Shown here: piece after piece, positions 55,292 to 63,479 of the stretch | Layout of the letters: each line of letters opens with the position of its first letter | Numbering within the stretch: the stretch's first letter is position 1 | Source of the DNA: Halonotius pteroides | Lineage (GTDB): Archaea; Halobacteriota; Halobacteria; Halobacteriales; Haloferacaceae | Assembly (NCBI RefSeq): GCF_003605635.1 | Contig: NZ_QMDW01000004.1 | Location: 62,001 to 126,000, forward strand | Length of the DNA: 64,000 bases | Reading direction: 5' to 3' | The notes under the pieces: model-generated | The model's database searches: none | The model's input: the letters and a program-made list of their open reading frames with translations, nothing else | What the model was told of the DNA's origin: nothing | Position numbers and translations under genes: made by a program

Positions 55292-56353
55292 TTAGCTGTG
55301 TTCACCGTCGACAACCGAGTTAAGAAGCTCCCGAACCCTGTCGGTCGTCTCTCGCCAGTCGGGTTGGGACTCATACCGCTTGCGTGCAGCCAGCCCCATC
55401 GTCGCCAGCCGGTCGCGGTCGGCCGCCAGCGTCGTGATCGCGTCGGCGACAGCCGCCGCGTCGCCGGGCGCAACGAGAAACCCATTCTCCCCCTCGGTGA
55501 CGATATCGGTCGCGCCGCCGGCCCGTGAGGCGACCGCCGGCAGCCCGAAGCCCATCCCTTCGAGATAGACGATCCCGTACCCCTCGTACTGGGAGGGAAC
55601 GGCCAAAACGTGGTGATCACGGAACGCCGCGGCAAGCGCGTCGTCGTCGATGCCGCCGGTGAACGTAACACGCTCGTTTAGCCCGTGGTCGGCGACGCGG
55701 TTGCGACACCGTGAGACGTAGCCCTCGTCGACCGGTTTGCCGACAACGGTGAGCTCGGCGTCGCCGTCGGCAGCCGCCAGCCCGTCGATGAGCGTGTCGA
55801 CGCCTTTCCGCGGCGTGATGTTGCCGACGAACAGCACGCGAAGCGGCCCCTCGTGGGCGCGCTCGGTGATCCGGTCGGCTGCGATGGCTGAACCGAACCG
55901 GTCGCCGGCCGGCGGCGCGATCACTGTTCGGTCGGCGGCGACGCCGAAATCGGTGACAACGTCGCGCGTGACGCTGCTGTTGCAGACGACGCCGTCAACA
56001 CCCCGGAGATAGCAGCGTTCGACTGCCCGATACAGGGGTTGAAGCCGTCGGCTCTCACTCGCCCGGAGGTGATGAACAATGCTCACGATCGGTGCCGAAA
56101 GGTGGTGGTTCGTCCACGCCAGCGAGGGATGGGCGAGTTCGTCTTGCAGCAAGACATCGTAGTCGCCGGTGAGTCGCCGCCGCAGCCGGCGGGATAAGTT
56201 ATCGAGCAGCCCGCGCGGATAGGATCGCCACGGCAGCTCGATGAGCTCGACGCTGTCGCCGGCTGCTCTGAGTTCCGCGATGAGCTGACGGTCGTAGTGA
56301 AAGCCGCCCGATTGGGTGTCGAGGTCGCCGTAGACGACAAAGCCAAGCTTCAT
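55292..56353 (-). CDS. Glycosyltransferase family 4
   Basis: A 353-residue GT-B enzyme. It has an N-terminal acceptor domain (LGFVVYGDLDTQSGG) and a C-terminal donor domain with NITPRKGVDTLIDGL and the E-x7-E motif in YEGYGIVYLEG. It transfers a sugar from a nucleotide or lipid-linked donor. It overlaps the upstream sulfatase-like gene by four bases on the same strand, so both are cotranscribed. Donor and acceptor are unknown; N-glycosylation or envelope polysaccharide is plausible. Confidence 0.88.
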   Translation of the reverse strand: MKLGFVVYGDLDTQSGGFHYDRQLIAELRAAGDSVELIELPWRSYPRGLLDNLSRRLRRRLTGDYDVLLQDELAHPSLAWTNHHLSAPIVSIVHHLRASESRRLQPLYRAVERCYLRGVDGVVCNSSVTRDVVTDFGVAADRTVIAPPAGDRFGSAIAADRITERAHEGPLRVLFVGNITPRKGVDTLIDGLAAADGDAELTVVGKPVDEGYVSRCRNRVADHGLNERVTFTGGIDDDALAAAFRDHHVLAVPSQYEGYGIVYLEGMGFGLPAVASRAGGATDIVTEGENGFLVAPGDAAAVADAITTLAADRDRLATMGLAARKRYESQPDWRETTDRVRELLNSVVDGEHS

Positions 56354-57237
56354 TCGCGATATCCCAACGCCGCCAGCTGCTCACTTTCGGTGTCGTCGCC
56401 GTAAACCCGCGAGACAGGCAGCGATTCCGGCGGTTGCAGCGTCGGCGTTCGCGTCTGTCGGTCGGAGGCCGCTATCGTCGCCCACGGGACGGTGATGAGC
56501 GCGGGCACCGGCGTTTCCATCGGGTGGCCGTACAGCCCCCACTCGCCGAAGAGGTTGCCGTGATCGGCCGTGATAGCAACCCGACCGTCAACGTTCTCGC
56601 ACAACGATTCGACCTCGTTGAGTACGTACGCAAGATTCGCCCTATAAGCGTCCCACACACGGTCGGCGCTGACCTGATTCTGCCGCAACGCGACCCACGG
56701 ATTCCCTGTGTTGCTGTGGCTGCCAGCCCGTATCAGTCCGTCGTCGCCATCGAGCGGATCGGGGACGAAGGGGTGATGTGGCTGCATGTAGTGGGCAACG
56801 AGTCGCTCAGGGCGGCTTTCTCGGGTGTGTACGATAGCTCGATCCGTGATCGCATCCGGTGGAACCGTTCCGTGGTCGTCGTCCCACGCGTACTTCCAGA
56901 CCTCATCGAGCGCGGCGAAGGAGTCCGCATCAAGATAGCGATCCGTCCACGTGTTTCCGGTCACCATGACCGTCCGCTCGGTTTCGGGGTGGCCGACAAA
57001 ACTGTTCTGAAGCCACTCAGAGGAGGCACTGCCGACCGAGCGGAGCGAGCCGACTTCGGGGAGGAACTCGTAGTCGTCGGCGACCGCGGCGAGCAGGTCG
57101 GCCCGACAGCCGTCAAGAACCACCAACACGTCCCACGATCGCTCGAAGACGTTCGTCCCGTACGGCAGGCGACGGCCGACAGCCTGGATCGCCCGCAGAT
57201 AGGCCGTCCCAAGCCGGCTCATTCCCGGTTCTATCAC
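56350..57237 (-). CDS. Sulfatase-like alkaline phosphatase superfamily protein
   Basis: A 295-residue AlkP-superfamily hydrolase. The first metal aspartate lies in VVLDGCRADLL, and the second site is ITADHGNLFGEWGLYGHP. No classical C/S-x-P-x-R formylglycine motif is present, so sulfatase activity is doubtful. It may instead be a phosphoglycerol- or phosphate-transfer enzyme acting on glycans. Coupling with a glycosyltransferase supports a surface glycan role. It is divergent from the fused oxidoreductase gene. Confidence 0.78.
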   Translation of the reverse strand: MIEPGMSRLGTAYLRAIQAVGRRLPYGTNVFERSWDVLVVLDGCRADLLAAVADDYEFLPEVGSLRSVGSASSEWLQNSFVGHPETERTVMVTGNTWTDRYLDADSFAALDEVWKYAWDDDHGTVPPDAITDRAIVHTRESRPERLVAHYMQPHHPFVPDPLDGDDGLIRAGSHSNTGNPWVALRQNQVSADRVWDAYRANLAYVLNEVESLCENVDGRVAITADHGNLFGEWGLYGHPMETPVPALITVPWATIAASDRQTRTPTLQPPESLPVSRVYGDDTESEQLAALGYRE

Positions 57238-57329
57238 GGCTATCCTTCGGCCGAGACTGGCAAAACCCCATCGGCGATATCACAGCCCATCGCCGAGGGA
57301 ATTTTACCCCTCGCCCGCGCGATAACAGT

Positions 57330-59282
57330 GTGCACTGTTTGTTCGTTGGCGCGGGCTCGATTGCGGCGTCGTACGCCGATGGCCTCGGTGACACGGCGCT
57401 CACGCTGGCTGGCGTCTGTGACCTCGACAGCGACCGCGCCGAATCCCTCGCCGCGGGCCACGACTGCCCTGCCTTCGCCGATCTCGACGCCGCCCTTGAC
57501 ACACTCGACGCACCGCTGGTCGTCAACCTGACGAGCCACGCGGCCCATGCCGCGATCACCCGCACTGCTCTTGAAGCCGGTCGCCACGTCTACTCGGAGA
57601 AACCGCTCGCACTCGATAGTGGGACGGCCGGTGAACTGGTCGAGATGGCCGTCGATCGAGATCTCGCGCTTGGCTGTGCACCGGCATCCGTGGACGGGCC
57701 GACACAACAGCGCGCCCGCCGCCTGCTCGGGGAGGGCCGACTCGGATCAGTCCAACTGGCCTACGCCCACGCCCACGTCGGCCGCGTCACCGATTGGCAT
57801 GACCGCCCCGACTCCTTCCTCTCTATCGGGCCGCTGTACGACGGCGGAGTTTATCCGCTGTCACTGCTGGTCGCGTGGTTTGGCCCCGTCGATCGTGTCC
57901 GTGTCGCTGACAGCCTCGACACATGGCCGGCGGAGGAACCCAAACAGCCTGACGCCGACAGCCACGTTGAGGCGACGCTGGCGTTTCGAGATGGCCCGAC
58001 GGTGCGGCTCACAGCGAGCTTTTATGCGCCACACCGCAGTCGAGAGTTCTACGGGCTGGAGCTCCACGGTGACGATGGCTCGCTGTTTCTCGACAATACC
58101 GGTCGGATGGCACCCGACGACGACGCTGTCCAGTACGGCGGGCTCGGCCGATCGTACACGACCGTCCCGCCGCAGTCGCCGACCAACTCACGACGGTATA
58201 TCGACGCCGTCACCGACCTTGCGGCCAGCGTCACTGCCGGCGAGCCGGATCGCCGAACAGCGCGCCGCGGGGCCCATGTCGTCGCCGTCTGTAACGCCAT
58301 CGAGACGGCGGCCGCCAAGGGTGGCCCGATCGACGTGGCAACCCACGGCGTCACGGACACCGATATGAGGGCGTTGACAGCGACAACACCCGACGAGAGT
58401 CGCATGTCGATGCCGCCGATCGGCGTCGGCTGTTCGCGTTACCGTGGCGACGAGTACGTCGACCGCAAAGCGTCGATCGCAACCGCGCTCGATGCGGGCT
58501 ACCGCTTGCTCGATAGCGCGGAGCTGTACGGCAACGAGTTCCGGATCGGCGAGCTGCTGGCCGCGCCGGGGACACCGGATCGAGATCGGCTGACGATCCT
58601 TGGGAAAGTCTGGCGAACGAACCACCGACAGGAACATCTACTGGCAGCCTGCGAAGGGAGTCTCAACGAACTCGGAATCGACGCCTTCGACTGTTATATG
58701 CTCCACTGGCCGGAGGCATGGGCTCACCAGGGATCGCTGGATCGGCTGGCCCAGAAACCGGTCGACCGACAGGAGACACTGACCTTTCCGACCGACGGCG
58801 ACGGTGAGATCAAGCCGGCGTCGGTCTCGCTCCCGGAGGCGTGGGCGAATCTTGAGCAGGTCGCCGAGCGGGGCTGGGCGGAGACACTCGGCGTCTGTAA
58901 TGTCTCACAGTCACAGCTCAACACGATCCTCGACTCGGGAACGATCCCGCCGGCTGTCGTCCAGATCGAGCGACATCCCTACCAGCCGCGGTCTGAACTT
59001 GTCGAGTTCTGCCACAACAATGATATGACTGTCGTGGCTCACTCACCGCTGTCGGCTCCCGGCCTGCTTGAGGAGCCGGTGTTGGCTGAGCTTGGCGAGA
59101 CATACGACCTCTCGCCGGCCGGCGTCGTGTTGGCGTGGAACGCGACCCGCGGTGTTGTGCCAATTCCGTCAAGCACGACCGACGAGCACATCGTCGCCAA
59201 CGCAGCCGCGGTAGCAACACGGCTCAGCCCGGATGACTGTGCACGGATCGACGAACTCCGCGACCCCGCGTTCAGCCGGTAA
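57330..59282 (+). CDS. Gfo/Idh/MocA oxidoreductase fused to aldo/keto reductase
   Basis: 650 residues from a GTG at 57330. Residues 1 to about 350 form a Gfo/Idh/MocA dehydrogenase: GAGSIAASYADG Rossmann loop and SEKPLAL, which carries the conserved lysine. Residues 359-650 form a complete aldo/keto reductase with catalytic D395, Y400, K426 and H459 (motifs LLDSAELYG, LGKVW, MLHW). An in-frame ATG at 58404 marks the junction, as though two genes had merged. Both activities use nicotinamide cofactors and could interconvert oxidised and reduced forms of one sugar-like substrate. Envelope genes surround it. Confidence 0.85.
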   Translation: MHCLFVGAGSIAASYADGLGDTALTLAGVCDLDSDRAESLAAGHDCPAFADLDAALDTLDAPLVVNLTSHAAHAAITRTALEAGRHVYSEKPLALDSGTAGELVEMAVDRDLALGCAPASVDGPTQQRARRLLGEGRLGSVQLAYAHAHVGRVTDWHDRPDSFLSIGPLYDGGVYPLSLLVAWFGPVDRVRVADSLDTWPAEEPKQPDADSHVEATLAFRDGPTVRLTASFYAPHRSREFYGLELHGDDGSLFLDNTGRMAPDDDAVQYGGLGRSYTTVPPQSPTNSRRYIDAVTDLAASVTAGEPDRRTARRGAHVVAVCNAIETAAAKGGPIDVATHGVTDTDMRALTATTPDESRMSMPPIGVGCSRYRGDEYVDRKASIATALDAGYRLLDSAELYGNEFRIGELLAAPGTPDRDRLTILGKVWRTNHRQEHLLAACEGSLNELGIDAFDCYMLHWPEAWAHQGSLDRLAQKPVDRQETLTFPTDGDGEIKPASVSLPEAWANLEQVAERGWAETLGVCNVSQSQLNTILDSGTIPPAVVQIERHPYQPRSELVEFCHNNDMTVVAHSPLSAPGLLEEPVLAELGETYDLSPAGVVLAWNATRGVVPIPSSTTDEHIVANAAAVATRLSPDDCARIDELRDPAFSR

Positions 59283-59330
59283 TCGTCACACAGGCGGTAC
59301 GATTATGTGGATTCCGGCCGATATGATGCT

Positions 59331-59711
59331 ATGAGCACAAACACCGGTGGCCTCTCGGTCGACACCGAACCGCTGGGCGGTCTCGCCTACGTCGGTATCA
59401 TCGCCGCGGTCATCTCGGCGGTGATCCATCTCCGGCTCGGCGTCGGGTTCATCCAGTCGCCGCTCGGGATCAGCTTCATCCTTGCGGGGCTCGGCTTCCT
59501 CGGCGCGGTCGGTCTCGTTCTCGTCAACTACCGCCGCCGGACGGTCTATGCTGTCGGCATCCCGTTTACCGCGGTGCAGATCGGTATCTGGTACTATGTC
59601 AACTTCGCGGCCGGCGGCAAGGCGTTTCCGGCAGATATCGGCACCATCGGAGCGATCGACAAGGTTGCACAGCTCGTGTTGATTGTCGTCCTCATCGCGC
59701 TCCTTCGGTGA
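59331..59711 (+). CDS. Haloarchaeal membrane protein of unknown function
   Basis: 126 residues from the ATG at 59331; the frame is open upstream from 59307. It has four membrane helices (LAYVGIIAAVISAVIHLRL, GISFILAGLGFLGAVGLVL, AVGIPFTAVQIGIWYYV, VAQLVLIVVLIALL). It is a small, conserved-looking haloarchaeal protein with no known role. It lies seven bases before the start of the CDP-alcohol phosphatidyltransferase, so an envelope or lipid role is likely but unproven. Confidence 0.7.
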   Translation: MSTNTGGLSVDTEPLGGLAYVGIIAAVISAVIHLRLGVGFIQSPLGISFILAGLGFLGAVGLVLVNYRRRTVYAVGIPFTAVQIGIWYYVNFAAGGKAFPADIGTIGAIDKVAQLVLIVVLIALLR

Positions 59712-59718
59712 GGTAGTC

Positions 59719-60525
59719 GTGTCCACATGGTATCGGCGGACGGCGACAATCGAGGTCGGGCTCCGATTTGGGGTGCCGGCGGTCGCTGCGGGCTGTCTCG
59801 CCGTGTTGGTGTCAGCCGGGCTATCAACCACACCCGCGGTGTGGTCGCCGGTATCGCCGTGGGCGGTCGCTGCGGTGGTATGGGCCGGGCAGCTGTGGCA
59901 TATCGGGCGGCAAACCGGGCGTGCCGAGCTCGGCGAGCGGCCGGTACGCTACCTCTTTGGGATCGCAAACACACTTTCACTGCTGCGGAGCGGCCTTTAC
60001 AGTGTTGTCGCCGGGCTGGCTGTTGCTGCCCCGACCGCCATGGTCGTGTGGCTGCCCGGGCTGTGTTACGGCGTCGGAATCGTTCTCGACACGCTTGACG
60101 GAACGGTCGCCCGGACGGTCGGCCAAGAGACCGCCCTCGGCGAGCGGCTGGATATGGCTGTCGACACCGCCGGCTTCGTCGCTGCACCGGTTGTGGCTGT
60201 CTGCTGGGGGTTGTTGCCACCGTGGTATCTGCTACTGTCGGTGGCGCGGTATGCCTTTCTCGGGGCGGGGTGGCTCCGTCGCGCTCGCGATTTGCCGGTC
60301 TTCGAGCGGCCGGACAGTGACCTTGGAAAATACCTTGCAGGCGTCCAGATGGGCTTCCTGACGGCCGTGTTGCTGCCGGTGGTGCCGACCGGACTCGGCT
60401 GGCGGCTTGCACCGATTATCCTCGCCCCGTCGCTGGCGGTTTTCGGGCGGGATATTCTAGCGATCAACGGGTTGTATCCGCCGAACTGCGGCACAGACGC
60501 CGCTGGTCACAGCGACGACGCTTAA
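59719..60525 (+). CDS. CDP-alcohol phosphatidyltransferase
   Basis: 268 residues from a GTG at 59719, preceded by GAGGT. The family signature is intact: LDGTVARTV (D-G-x2-A-R), then G and two aspartates in GERLDMAVD. Six or more membrane helices surround it. It should join a CDP-activated lipid and a small alcohol, such as glycerol, serine or inositol phosphate. It overlaps the preceding small membrane gene's neighbourhood and is followed by a YdjM-like gene, so a lipid headgroup role fits. Substrate unknown. Confidence 0.9.
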   Translation: MSTWYRRTATIEVGLRFGVPAVAAGCLAVLVSAGLSTTPAVWSPVSPWAVAAVVWAGQLWHIGRQTGRAELGERPVRYLFGIANTLSLLRSGLYSVVAGLAVAAPTAMVVWLPGLCYGVGIVLDTLDGTVARTVGQETALGERLDMAVDTAGFVAAPVVAVCWGLLPPWYLLLSVARYAFLGAGWLRRARDLPVFERPDSDLGKYLAGVQMGFLTAVLLPVVPTGLGWRLAPIILAPSLAVFGRDILAINGLYPPNCGTDAAGHSDDA

Positions 60526-60550: not shown

Positions 60551-61069
60551 GTGTTGTTTCCGACGCATCTGGTCGCCGCCGCCGGCATCGGTATCGGGAG
60601 TAGGCTCCGTGCCGCAGGATCTGGGGCGTCGACGGAACCCGCCTCCCAGCCCACGCTGTCTATCGGCTGGCTGGTCGTCGGGGCTGCGTTGCCGGATTTT
60701 ATCGACAAACCGCTGGGAATGGCCGGCGTGACCGATCTCTTCCACTCACTCGGCCACAGCGCGCTGTTGTTGCCGGTGCTGATTGTGGTTGGCCTCGTCG
60801 GTCGGCAGGGGTTGGCACTCGCCGTCGGCTGGGGGTCGCATCTCCTGCTCGACGGGCTCCATGTTGTCATCAACGGCCGACCGAGCGACGCGCTGTTTCT
60901 CGGCTGGCCACTGGTGGTGCCGCCGACCCCGCCGGCGATCCCGCCGGGGGAGTTTGTCTGGGTCTATCTCGGCAGCCCGTCGTTCTATCTCGAAGTGCTG
61001 CTCTGGGTGGCCGTCGGCGTACTCGCCGCGTGGTCGCTGCGGCGCGGGGCCAGCAACACACCGAACTGA
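60551..61069 (+). CDS. YdjM-like membrane-bound metal-dependent hydrolase
   Basis: 172 residues from a GTG at 60551. The family pattern is clear: FPTHLVAAAG at the start, ALPDFIDKP, LFHSLGHSALLL and WGSHLLLDGLHV, with several His and Asp in membrane helices, as in the LexA-regulated YdjM/metal-dependent hydrolase group. Activity is predicted rather than proven. It sits between the phosphatidyltransferase and a PAP2 phosphatase gene. Confidence 0.75.
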   Translation: MLFPTHLVAAAGIGIGSRLRAAGSGASTEPASQPTLSIGWLVVGAALPDFIDKPLGMAGVTDLFHSLGHSALLLPVLIVVGLVGRQGLALAVGWGSHLLLDGLHVVINGRPSDALFLGWPLVVPPTPPAIPPGEFVWVYLGSPSFYLEVLLWVAVGVLAAWSLRRGASNTPN

Positions 61070-61119
61070 GTCGATGCCGCCGAGGCTTTGTCCGTTCGGC
61101 CCAACGATTCGGCACCCAT

Positions 61120-61686
61120 ATGACACAACTCATCGCCGAGATCGGCGCGCTCATTGTCAGTCTCGATCACCTCGCCGCCGACCTCCTCGTTTCGATCCGT
61201 GATCCCGCGATCACGAAGATCATGAACTCGGTAACCGGCCTCGGCTCGGCGACCGCAGCGGCCGTCATCGTCGGGCTGTTGTATTTGGCCGACCTCCACG
61301 AGGAGGTCGCAACATCGGTGCTTGCGCTTGGACTCACCGGGCCTGTTGTCCTGACGCTGATGGGTCTCGTCCAGCGACCGTTTCCGCCAAATCCGGTCTG
61401 TGTCACGAGCGGCGAAATGGTCGCCCACTCGTTTCCGTCCGGACATGCCGCCGGTGTCACCGTTTTCGCGCTTCTTGCTGTCCGCTCCGACCGGCTGCCA
61501 CTTGCGCCGACAGCTGTGTTAGCTGTCCTGATCGCTGTCTCGCGGATGTATCTTGGAACCCATTATCTCTCAGACACCCTTGTCGGGGTCGCCATCGGGG
61601 CGGCCGCGTTTTTCATCGCAACGCGCCTGCTGGCCGGGCGCAGGCAGACGATCTTGAGCTATATGAAAGAAGGGAGGGCGGGTTAG
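61120..61686 (+). CDS. PAP2-family lipid phosphatase
   Basis: 188 residues from the ATG at 61120. PAP2 signatures are present: GLVQRPFPP, HSFPSGHAAG and SRMYLGTHYLSD (SRxxxxxHxxxD). The membrane helices place the catalytic site at the outer face. It dephosphorylates phosphatidate-like or polyprenyl-phosphate lipids. It follows the CDP-alcohol phosphatidyltransferase cluster, which fits recycling of lipid carriers. It overlaps the next minus-strand gene by four bases at its end. Confidence 0.9.
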   Translation: MTQLIAEIGALIVSLDHLAADLLVSIRDPAITKIMNSVTGLGSATAAAVIVGLLYLADLHEEVATSVLALGLTGPVVLTLMGLVQRPFPPNPVCVTSGEMVAHSFPSGHAAGVTVFALLAVRSDRLPLAPTAVLAVLIAVSRMYLGTHYLSDTLVGVAIGAAAFFIATRLLAGRRQTILSYMKEGRAG

Positions 61687-62669
61687 TACGTAAGGACGAC
61701 CTGTAACGCCGGCTCCGAGTGGTCGTCCAGCAGTTCGTAGGCGTCGGCTGCCTGCTCGAACGGGATTCGGTGGCTGATAAGTCGCTCACAATTAACCCGG
61801 TCAAGCCACTCAACTGCGGTGTCGAACCGGCGTTCGCGATCCCAGCGGCCACGCCGGGCGGGATCGATCGTACTCACCTGACTGGAGACGAGTTCGATCC
61901 GATCGCGGTGGAACGAGCCGCCAAGATCGATCGGCGCGCGCTTCTCGCCGTACCACGAGCCCACAACGACACGGCCGTCATAGCCGACGGCGTCGATGGC
62001 GTCGTTGAGCACCGCCGGCTCACCGGAGAGTTCGACGGCGAGATCACAGTCGCCCAGTTCGGCCGCGGCAGTCTCGGGCGTCACCGTTCGATCTGCGCCC
62101 ATCGCGGTCGCCGCCTCTCGCCGGGCAGCAAGTGGTTCGACAACGACGAGCTCGTTGAGTGGGAACGCCGACAACAGCCGGGTCGTACAGAGACCGACAA
62201 CACCGGCCCCGAACACGACGACCGACTCGCCGAGCCGCGGCTCGCTGTCGAGAACGAGGTTCGTCGCAGTTTCAACCGTCGGCAGGAGGCTGCCGTGGGC
62301 GGCCGAAACACCCTCAGGCAGCGTGATAAGATCGTCCGGGTCGGCCACAAAACGCGTCTGATGTGGGCGGAACGCAAACACCGACCGATCCAGCCAGCTG
62401 TCGGTCACGTCGCTGCCGACCTCGACGACGGTACCGGCGGCGGCATAGCCGTATCGCATCGGGTACTCGAAGGTGTCGTCGAAGGCCTCGATGCTCTCGT
62501 CGACCGGGAGGTCGGTCGGCATCTCATCGTGGTAGACGAGCAGCTCCGAGCCGGCACTGATCGCGGAGGCATCGGTCTCGACGACCACCTCAGTCGGGGC
62601 CGGATCGACGTTGACCGGACGATGGTCGACCGTCTCCGGGCCGGTGAAGTACAGCGCGGTCTCGCTCAT
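61683..62669 (-). CDS. Medium-chain dehydrogenase/reductase, zinc-site modified
   Basis: A 328-residue MDR-family protein: GYAAAGTVVEVG, then VVVFGAGVVGLCTTRLL as the NAD(P) loop. The substrate-zinc cysteine of alcohol dehydrogenases is not seen at SAISAGSELLVY, and no structural zinc cysteines are present. It resembles BchC/threonine-dehydrogenase-like members of unknown substrate. It precedes nothing obvious; GTP cyclohydrolase III lies 33 bases upstream on the same strand. Confidence 0.8.
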   Translation of the reverse strand: MSETALYFTGPETVDHRPVNVDPAPTEVVVETDASAISAGSELLVYHDEMPTDLPVDESIEAFDDTFEYPMRYGYAAAGTVVEVGSDVTDSWLDRSVFAFRPHQTRFVADPDDLITLPEGVSAAHGSLLPTVETATNLVLDSEPRLGESVVVFGAGVVGLCTTRLLSAFPLNELVVVEPLAARREAATAMGADRTVTPETAAAELGDCDLAVELSGEPAVLNDAIDAVGYDGRVVVGSWYGEKRAPIDLGGSFHRDRIELVSSQVSTIDPARRGRWDRERRFDTAVEWLDRVNCERLISHRIPFEQAADAYELLDDHSEPALQVVLTY

Positions 62670-62702: not shown

Positions 62703-63479
62703 TCAATCGTCTCCGGTCGCTGCCTGTGGGTACTCGAACTCGACGGCCGTGCCCTCGTATCGGCAGTCCTCAAGGGCGTGTTTGGCGTCGTACCCCGCGT
62801 CATGGGCCGTCGCGCCGCGGCCGACACCGACCTTCAGTTCGACGCCGACATCATCTTCGACGTGATCGATGGCGTCCTGATAGGCATTCGTCGGCAGCTC
62901 AGGGCAGACAGCGATGATGTTGTCGCCGCCGACAAAAAATGAGAGCGCGCCGTGGGCCTCGCGCATGTACTCCATCAGCGAGGCGTAACTGCGTTCGATG
63001 TGAATGAAGGAGTCGAACTCGTTGAGTTGGTCGGTGTATTTGCCCGTCGCGTCGTTGACATCGAAGTGGGCCATATGTGTTGTGGCGTCAGCGTCGCCGT
63101 CTAAAGGCTCGCCGGCGAGTACCTCGGTGCGACTCTTGTCTTGGGCACTGCCGGCAGCCTGAATCTGCTCGGTCGCCGCATCGAGGGCGGCCGCCGGCGT
63201 CTCAGCGGTGCCGATACCGAGGCTGACGGTGACCGGATACCGGTTGCGGACGCTTTCTTGCAGGGATTTGTGACCGGCACGACCGATGCCGTTGGTGACG
63301 GCGATCATGTTGTCAAACCGGCTGAAAAAGACGTAGCCGCCGCGGCTCCCGACGAACTGTGCGATGTCGGCAAACAGCCGGGATTGCAACGTCTGAAGAT
63401 CCATTTCTCGGCGTGGTTCGGGGGTGACCGTCCATGGTCCGTAGTTGTCGATCTGAATGAGAGTCAGCTGGGTCGTCAC
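62703..63479 (-). CDS. gch3: GTP cyclohydrolase III
   Basis: A 258-residue archaeal GCH III. It has two tandem ferredoxin-like halves: TQLTLIQIDNYGPWTVTP with FFSRFDNMIAVTNG in the first, SFFVGGDNIIAVCPE and VGVGRGATAHDAG in the second. It opens the imidazole ring of GTP to give 2-amino-5-formylamino-6-ribosylaminopyrimidinone 5'-phosphate for flavin and deazaflavin synthesis. It is possibly cotranscribed with the MDR dehydrogenase gene downstream. Confidence 0.94.
   Translation of the reverse strand: MTTQLTLIQIDNYGPWTVTPEPRREMDLQTLQSRLFADIAQFVGSRGGYVFFSRFDNMIAVTNGIGRAGHKSLQESVRNRYPVTVSLGIGTAETPAAALDAATEQIQAAGSAQDKSRTEVLAGEPLDGDADATTHMAHFDVNDATGKYTDQLNEFDSFIHIERSYASLMEYMREAHGALSFFVGGDNIIAVCPELPTNAYQDAIDHVEDDVGVELKVGVGRGATAHDAGYDAKHALEDCRYEGTAVEFEYPQAATGDD

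Follow-up and report, generated by a model that had tools for sequence, protein, structure and literature searches.

Glucose-fructose oxidoreductase of Zymomonas and aldose-aldose oxidoreductase of Caulobacter are single-domain enzymes that perform an oxidation and a reduction in one active site with a tightly bound NADP. The AKR1 aldehyde and aldose reductases and the plant mannose-6-phosphate and aldose-6-phosphate reductases share the aldo/keto reductase (AKR) fold and its catalytic tetrad. Haloarchaeal neighbourhoods of COG0720 (PTPS/QueD) genes with the GTP cyclohydrolase IIa ArfA (HVO_1284) have also been described. We examined a locus of Halonotius pteroides in which a Gfo/Idh/MocA dehydrogenase resembling the first enzymes is joined to an AKR resembling the second, and whose counterparts in other haloarchaea have PTPS, MDR and GTP cyclohydrolase neighbours like the third. 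The window analysed is a 64,000-nucleotide stretch (assembly GCF_003605635.1, contig NZ_QMDW01000004.1, positions 62,001-126,000 of the forward strand), and coordinates are given within it.

The open reading frame at 57330-59282 on the plus strand starts with GTG, ends with TAA, and encodes 650 residues with no internal stop. A TATA-like TTTTAC lies at 57302-57307, 23-28 nt 5' of the GTG, a position that would fit a leaderless haloarchaeal transcript starting at 57330. Pfam places GFO_IDH_MocA (PF01408, 55.9 bits; gathering cut-off 24) at residues 2-112 and GFO_IDH_MocA_C3 (PF22725, 53.9 bits; cut-off 27) at residues 127-252, with the C-domain reaching about residue 335. PF02894 also matches this half (40 bits; cut-off 22.9), and Aldo_ket_red (PF00248, 145.4 bits; cut-off 24) spans residues 364-644. 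The frame and these matches confirm a sequence-only reading of the locus, which had seen a Gfo/Idh/MocA dehydrogenase and a full AKR in one 650-residue protein. Pfam, conservation, an AlphaFold model and structural matches together delimit a Gfo/Idh/MocA half (hereafter Gfo half; residues 1-345, 57330..58364, plus strand) and an AKR half (residues 361-650, 58410..59282, plus strand). The model, built with 60 relatives, has a mean pLDDT of 91.5 and a pTM of 0.90, and both domains are confident. The only segment with pLDDT below 50 (residues 352-357) lies in the linker between them (residues 346-360, 58365..58409, plus strand), which is variable in length: 26-85 residues separate the equivalents of A328 and P362 in relatives. 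The linker contains the in-frame ATG at 58404, earlier taken as a trace of the fusion of two genes. Since its product, M359, is Met in just 2 of 114 relatives, this codon is not a relic start and is uninformative on the fusion event; M361 is Met in 3 of 114. Separate translation of the AKR half from an internal start was likewise rejected, as the junction Met is not conserved.

How often the fusion occurs among haloarchaea, a question raised by the sequence-only reading, was addressed by a protein search (E <1e-60). The fusion is present in 106 of 391 haloarchaeal species, about a quarter, and in 28 of 86 genera. None of these matches contains a stop, and the identical single frame in more than 100 species rules out a sequencing error or a missed stop at the junction; the fusion of the two enzymes is genuine. 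The 130 extracted copies (114 distinct) are single frames except for one frameshifted MAG (L014), and all other two-piece matches proved to be one open frame or to lie at contig ends or breaks. A scan of the whole collection recovered this domain arrangement from Halonotius, Haloarcula, Halolamina, Haloglomus and others, as well as from a bacterium, Salinibacter altiplanensis, at 45% identity. In Rhodothermia, five genomes out of 196, including Salinibacter, carry the fusion. In a phylum-wide sample it occurs in 15 of 295 genomes, all of the order to which H. pteroides belongs and none outside the haloarchaea. Copies in Haloarcula marismortui, Salinigranum and Halobellus are plasmid-borne.

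None of the species examined encodes the two halves as separate genes, and a search of the 391 haloarchaeal genomes for separate-gene ancestors (E 1e-60) found neither half standing alone as a close homologue. In Rhodothermia, the sole Gfo-only relative (G432, 38%) is interrupted by two stops within the matched region. Over 108 sequences, the pairwise distances of one half correlate with those of the other at 0.87, a value in keeping with halves that have travelled together. By simple NG86 counts, dN/dS is about 0.11-0.14 in both halves between H. pteroides and its nearest relatives and 0.10-0.14 in the Halonotius group; both halves are under purifying selection, which also speaks against a sequencing artefact. 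The joined form is old and shared by about a quarter of haloarchaeal species and some salt-loving bacteria.

The Gfo half has a Rossmann motif, GAGSIA, at residues 7-12. The catalytic Lys and the D-x-x-x-(H/Y) pair of Gfo/Idh/MocA enzymes are present, with K91 (in EKP or QKP), D171 and Y175 conserved in all 114 sequences. Tyr rather than His at position 175 is the glucose-fructose oxidoreductase, dihydrodiol dehydrogenase and xylose dehydrogenase type. The second β strand ends in Asp31, which is conserved in 107 of 108 sequences and suggests NAD rather than NADP as the cofactor. The Gfo half superposes on 1,5-anhydrofructose reductase, glucose-fructose oxidoreductase, levoglucosan dehydrogenase and aldose-aldose oxidoreductase (Z about 35-36, maximum 35.9), and its structural neighbours also include inositol dehydrogenases. 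Glucose-fructose and aldose-aldose oxidoreductases (Z 35-36 and 34.9, rmsd 2.4-2.6) have the Lys and Tyr catalytic pair in common with the Gfo half and possibly also the redox-neutral use of two substrates, but identity is 17-18% (18% for glucose-fructose oxidoreductase), and the fusion differs from both in its additional AKR domain and, as Asp31 suggests, in its probable use of NAD. Scores for the NCBIfam equivalogs remain far below the cut-offs, at 41.9 of 355 bits for inositol 2-dehydrogenase (IolG), 39.6 of 350 for the haloarchaeal xylose dehydrogenase Gfo6, and 37 of 450 for UDP-GlcNAc 3-dehydrogenase.

The AKR tetrad D395/Y400/K426/H459, whose residue numbers had been read correctly from the sequence, is intact in H. 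pteroides and in 108 of 114 sequences overall. This half superposes on AKR1 enzymes or aldose reductases and on plant hexose-6-phosphate reductases (Z about 33), with 29-35% identity. Unlike those enzymes, it is joined to a Gfo domain, is without a close free-standing counterpart in the haloarchaeal genomes examined, and lacks the Lys/Arg residues that bind the NADP 2'-phosphate, these positions being S614 (Ser, Ala or Thr in relatives) and H620. Together with Asp31, these replacements suggest NAD(H) as the cofactor of both halves, a preference that would allow a closed redox cycle. The 2,5-didehydrogluconate reductase families DkgA and DkgB score 121 of 425 and 136.5 of 327 bits, both below the cut-offs. 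With whole Pfam domains and all active-site residues in place, both halves are, as read from the sequence, catalytically complete in H. pteroides, in line with the earlier proposal.

The tetrad has been lost in Haloarcula sp. GH36 and Haloarcula halophila (L047 and L082; for example, L047:9001-10737) and in three genomes of the genus g17 (L083, L101 and L106), while K91, D171 and Y175 are kept. On the tree of the Gfo half, these proteins form two separate clades (support 1.0 and 0.999), and the Haloarcula pair groups with the intact L099 (support 0.967), indicating at least two losses. In these lineages, dN/dS (NG86) is about 0.57-0.8 in the AKR half versus 0.2-0.4 in the Gfo half; the former drifts and the latter is constrained, so the Gfo activity is the better kept. 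Both lineages retain the cluster along with the Gfo half. Tight coupling is therefore not obligatory, and it is unlikely that every lineage requires a shuttle from one site to the other. A linked oxidation and reduction of one sugar or cyclitol substrate, as put forward in the sequence-only reading, is thus weakened in its obligatory form. These natural losses are a ready-made experiment on the contribution of each half.

On the 5' side of the fusion, the minus strand encodes a GT4 glycosyltransferase (55292..56353) and, divergent from the fusion, a protein assigned by eye as sulfatase/alkaline-phosphatase-like (56350..57237), which carries a LVVLDGCRADLL motif, has no Pfam match and recurs in 15 of 49 fusion loci. 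The fusion is followed on its own strand by a small membrane protein, DUF7475 (59307..59711), a CDP-alcohol phosphotransferase (59683..60525, start codon uncertain), a YdjM-like membrane hydrolase (60551..61069, under the Pfam cut-off) and a PAP2 phosphatase (61030..61686, its real start probably within the frame). An MDR dehydrogenase (61683..62669; nearest NCBIfam BchC, far under the cut-off) and an ArfA-type GTP cyclohydrolase IIa (62703..63479), the single copy in the genome, lie beyond on the minus strand. The glycosyltransferase, CDP-alcohol transferase and PAP2 genes noted previously are therefore present, and the neighbourhood is conserved.

We read 49 fusion loci, using as probes the genes of the H. 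pteroides window and annotated Haloarcula genes. The CDP-alcohol phosphotransferase lies immediately 3' of the fusion on the same strand in 41 of them, and the start and stop codons of the two genes overlap in the annotated plasmid copies of Salinigranum, Halobellus and Haloarcula GH36. A GT4 gene is present in 38 loci, a DUF7475-like gene in 36, MDR in 33, PTPS and a methyltransferase in 30 each, and GTP cyclohydrolase in 18. The DUF7475 protein also recurs near PTPS loci that have no fusion. About 19 of the 49 loci have no PTPS in the stretch read; those genomes carry it elsewhere, in nearly all cases read still with MDR and a methyltransferase or GT4. In H. pteroides, too, the PTPS (G000:C93:68252-68623) and the methyltransferase are unlinked to the fusion. 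Of the 391 haloarchaeal genomes, 233 have the PTPS type, which in the loci read is next to MDR in almost every case. It is found in 106 of 106 genomes with the fusion versus 127 of 285 without it (Fisher p 4e-30, a value not corrected for phylogeny). Fusion-free genomes keep GTP cyclohydrolase, MDR, PTPS and GT4 as one run. Since PTPS is in all fusion genomes and in many others, its module is the broader one, and the fusion is at most an accessory to it.

This PTPS has Glu at the catalytic Cys position of the QueD motif CxxxHGH and HSH in place of HGH in 80 of 80 readable copies (for example, L047:13359-13733) and is thus not an ordinary QueD (6-carboxytetrahydropterin synthase), for which it scores 44.6 against a cut-off of 89.25. 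No function is assigned to this type in the accessible literature. In S. altiplanensis and a relative, MDR, PTPS, GT4 and methyltransferase genes lie beside the fusion, together with a fusion of RibA (GTP cyclohydrolase II) and the RibD reductase without the deaminase (L012:8468-9829 and L187:16363-17730, respectively). S. altiplanensis, the single genome checked, has further, housekeeping ribD and ribA copies elsewhere. The link between PTPS and the fusion hence spans the divide between archaea and bacteria, and both sides include GTP-opening chemistry. Haloferax needs the orthologous GTP cyclohydrolase IIa gene, HVO_1284, to make riboflavin (PMC8305020, Table 6), and the single copy in H. 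pteroides may therefore reflect riboflavin rather than a cluster product. The association with PTPS, MDR, GTP cyclohydrolase and methyltransferase goes beyond the neighbourhood recognized earlier; it is a strong one and speaks for a metabolite derived from GTP rather than for simple breakdown of sugars.

We propose, with about even confidence, that the fusion catalyzes two NAD(H)-dependent tailoring steps for a biosynthetic cluster whose product is a GTP-derived, probably glycosylated metabolite. In this ancient bifunctional oxidoreductase, encoded by one gene, the Gfo domain, probably NAD+-dependent, would oxidize a hydroxyl on a sugar-like or polyol-like group, and the AKR domain, probably NADH-dependent, would reduce a carbonyl on the same or a successive intermediate. 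In most species, the pair could run redox-neutrally, for example in an epimerization or an aldose/ketose-type change. The tailoring step would belong to a module of GTP cyclohydrolase, PTPS-like protein, MDR, methyltransferase and GT4, to which haloarchaea would add the CDP-alcohol phosphotransferase. The likely product would be of the pterin or ribityl-pyrimidine type, glycosylated, and possibly attached to lipid via the CDP-alcohol transferase. Sulfohalopterin and phosphohalopterin are haloarchaeal pterins and represent a possible product class. In this proposal, the single conserved protein, its two folds, the conservation of the active sites, the gene linkage and the co-occurrence with PTPS are shown, whereas cofactor, substrate, reaction direction, coupling and product are inferred. 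As a more tentative extension, possible rather than probable when taken as a whole, the fusion may be the signature enzyme of an undescribed GTP-branching pathway in haloarchaea and Salinibacter. Such a pathway would be entered via GTP cyclohydrolase IIa or a dedicated RibA-RibD reductase, proceed through the variant PTPS, MDR dehydrogenase, methyltransferase and glycosyltransferase, and end in a glycosylated pterin- or ribityl-pyrimidine-type product, membrane-tethered in haloarchaea. Against the tailoring role stand the loci without a nearby PTPS, among them that of H. pteroides, and the occurrence of the PTPS module without the fusion; the AKR losses argue against obligatory coupling.

The main rival is a role in lipid headgroup synthesis, in which the fusion would turn a sugar or cyclitol (or its phosphate) into an alcohol, the CDP-alcohol phosphotransferase would attach this alcohol to archaeal lipid, and GT4 and PAP2 would finish a glycolipid, the pterin genes being neighbours for other reasons. 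The CDP-alcohol phosphotransferase directly 3' of the fusion is indeed the tightest link of all, several loci (L070-L073) hold this gene and little else of the set, and the structural neighbours include hexose-6-phosphate reductases and inositol dehydrogenases. Against this role, the CDP-alcohol enzyme, which retains an intact D-xx-DG-xx-AR-x8-G-xxx-D-xxx-D motif, scores far under every characterized headgroup family. Moreover, the Salinibacter locus yielded no CDP-alcohol transferase match, the partners there being MDR, PTPS, GT4, methyltransferase and RibA-RibD, and the PTPS type is present in every fusion genome. We consider the headgroup role unlikely.

Less probable again is a catabolic role in osmolyte production or sugar use, in which the Gfo half would oxidize an aldose to a lactone while the AKR half makes an alditol from another sugar, as in glucose-fructose or aldose-aldose oxidoreductase with the activity split over two domains. 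The Tyr-type active site, the superposition on these two enzymes, and weak NCBIfam matches to the haloarchaeal xylose dehydrogenase Gfo6 and to inositol dehydrogenase agree with it. However, all family scores are far under the cut-offs, glucose-fructose oxidoreductase performs both half-reactions in one domain and so needs no second one, and the genes that recur nearby are biosynthetic. No transporter, kinase, dehydratase or aldolase gene was repeatedly seen beside the fusion among those probed or annotated, which argues against a catabolic sugar operon. The two independent tetrad losses, with relaxed constraint on the AKR half, would also suit a mainly structural AKR half that serves as a dimer or scaffold element while the relevant enzyme is the Gfo half. 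We give this little credence, since the tetrad is intact in nearly all proteins, the Halonotius group shows similarly low dN/dS for the two halves, and degeneration after loss of function is a simpler reading of the two lineages.

Both enzyme folds are common, and the value of the fusion is as a clean marker, one long and easily recognized gene, of a cluster that is apparently unexplored and found in about a quarter of haloarchaeal species. No account of the fusion or the cluster appeared in the openly available literature searched, and their novelty is accordingly provisional. Should the product of the cluster be a glycosylated GTP derivative, the cluster would provide the genes behind a class of pigment- or cofactor-like halophile molecules, and the genetically tractable Haloarcula could serve for testing it. 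In the H. pteroides window itself, the segment 61683-64000 is arranged as in fusion-free haloarchaea (L140), with the MDR dehydrogenase (elsewhere next to PTPS), the GTP cyclohydrolase IIa and a HAD hydrolase in sequence, minus PTPS and GT4. This segment is apparently a remnant of the core locus beside the fusion operon.
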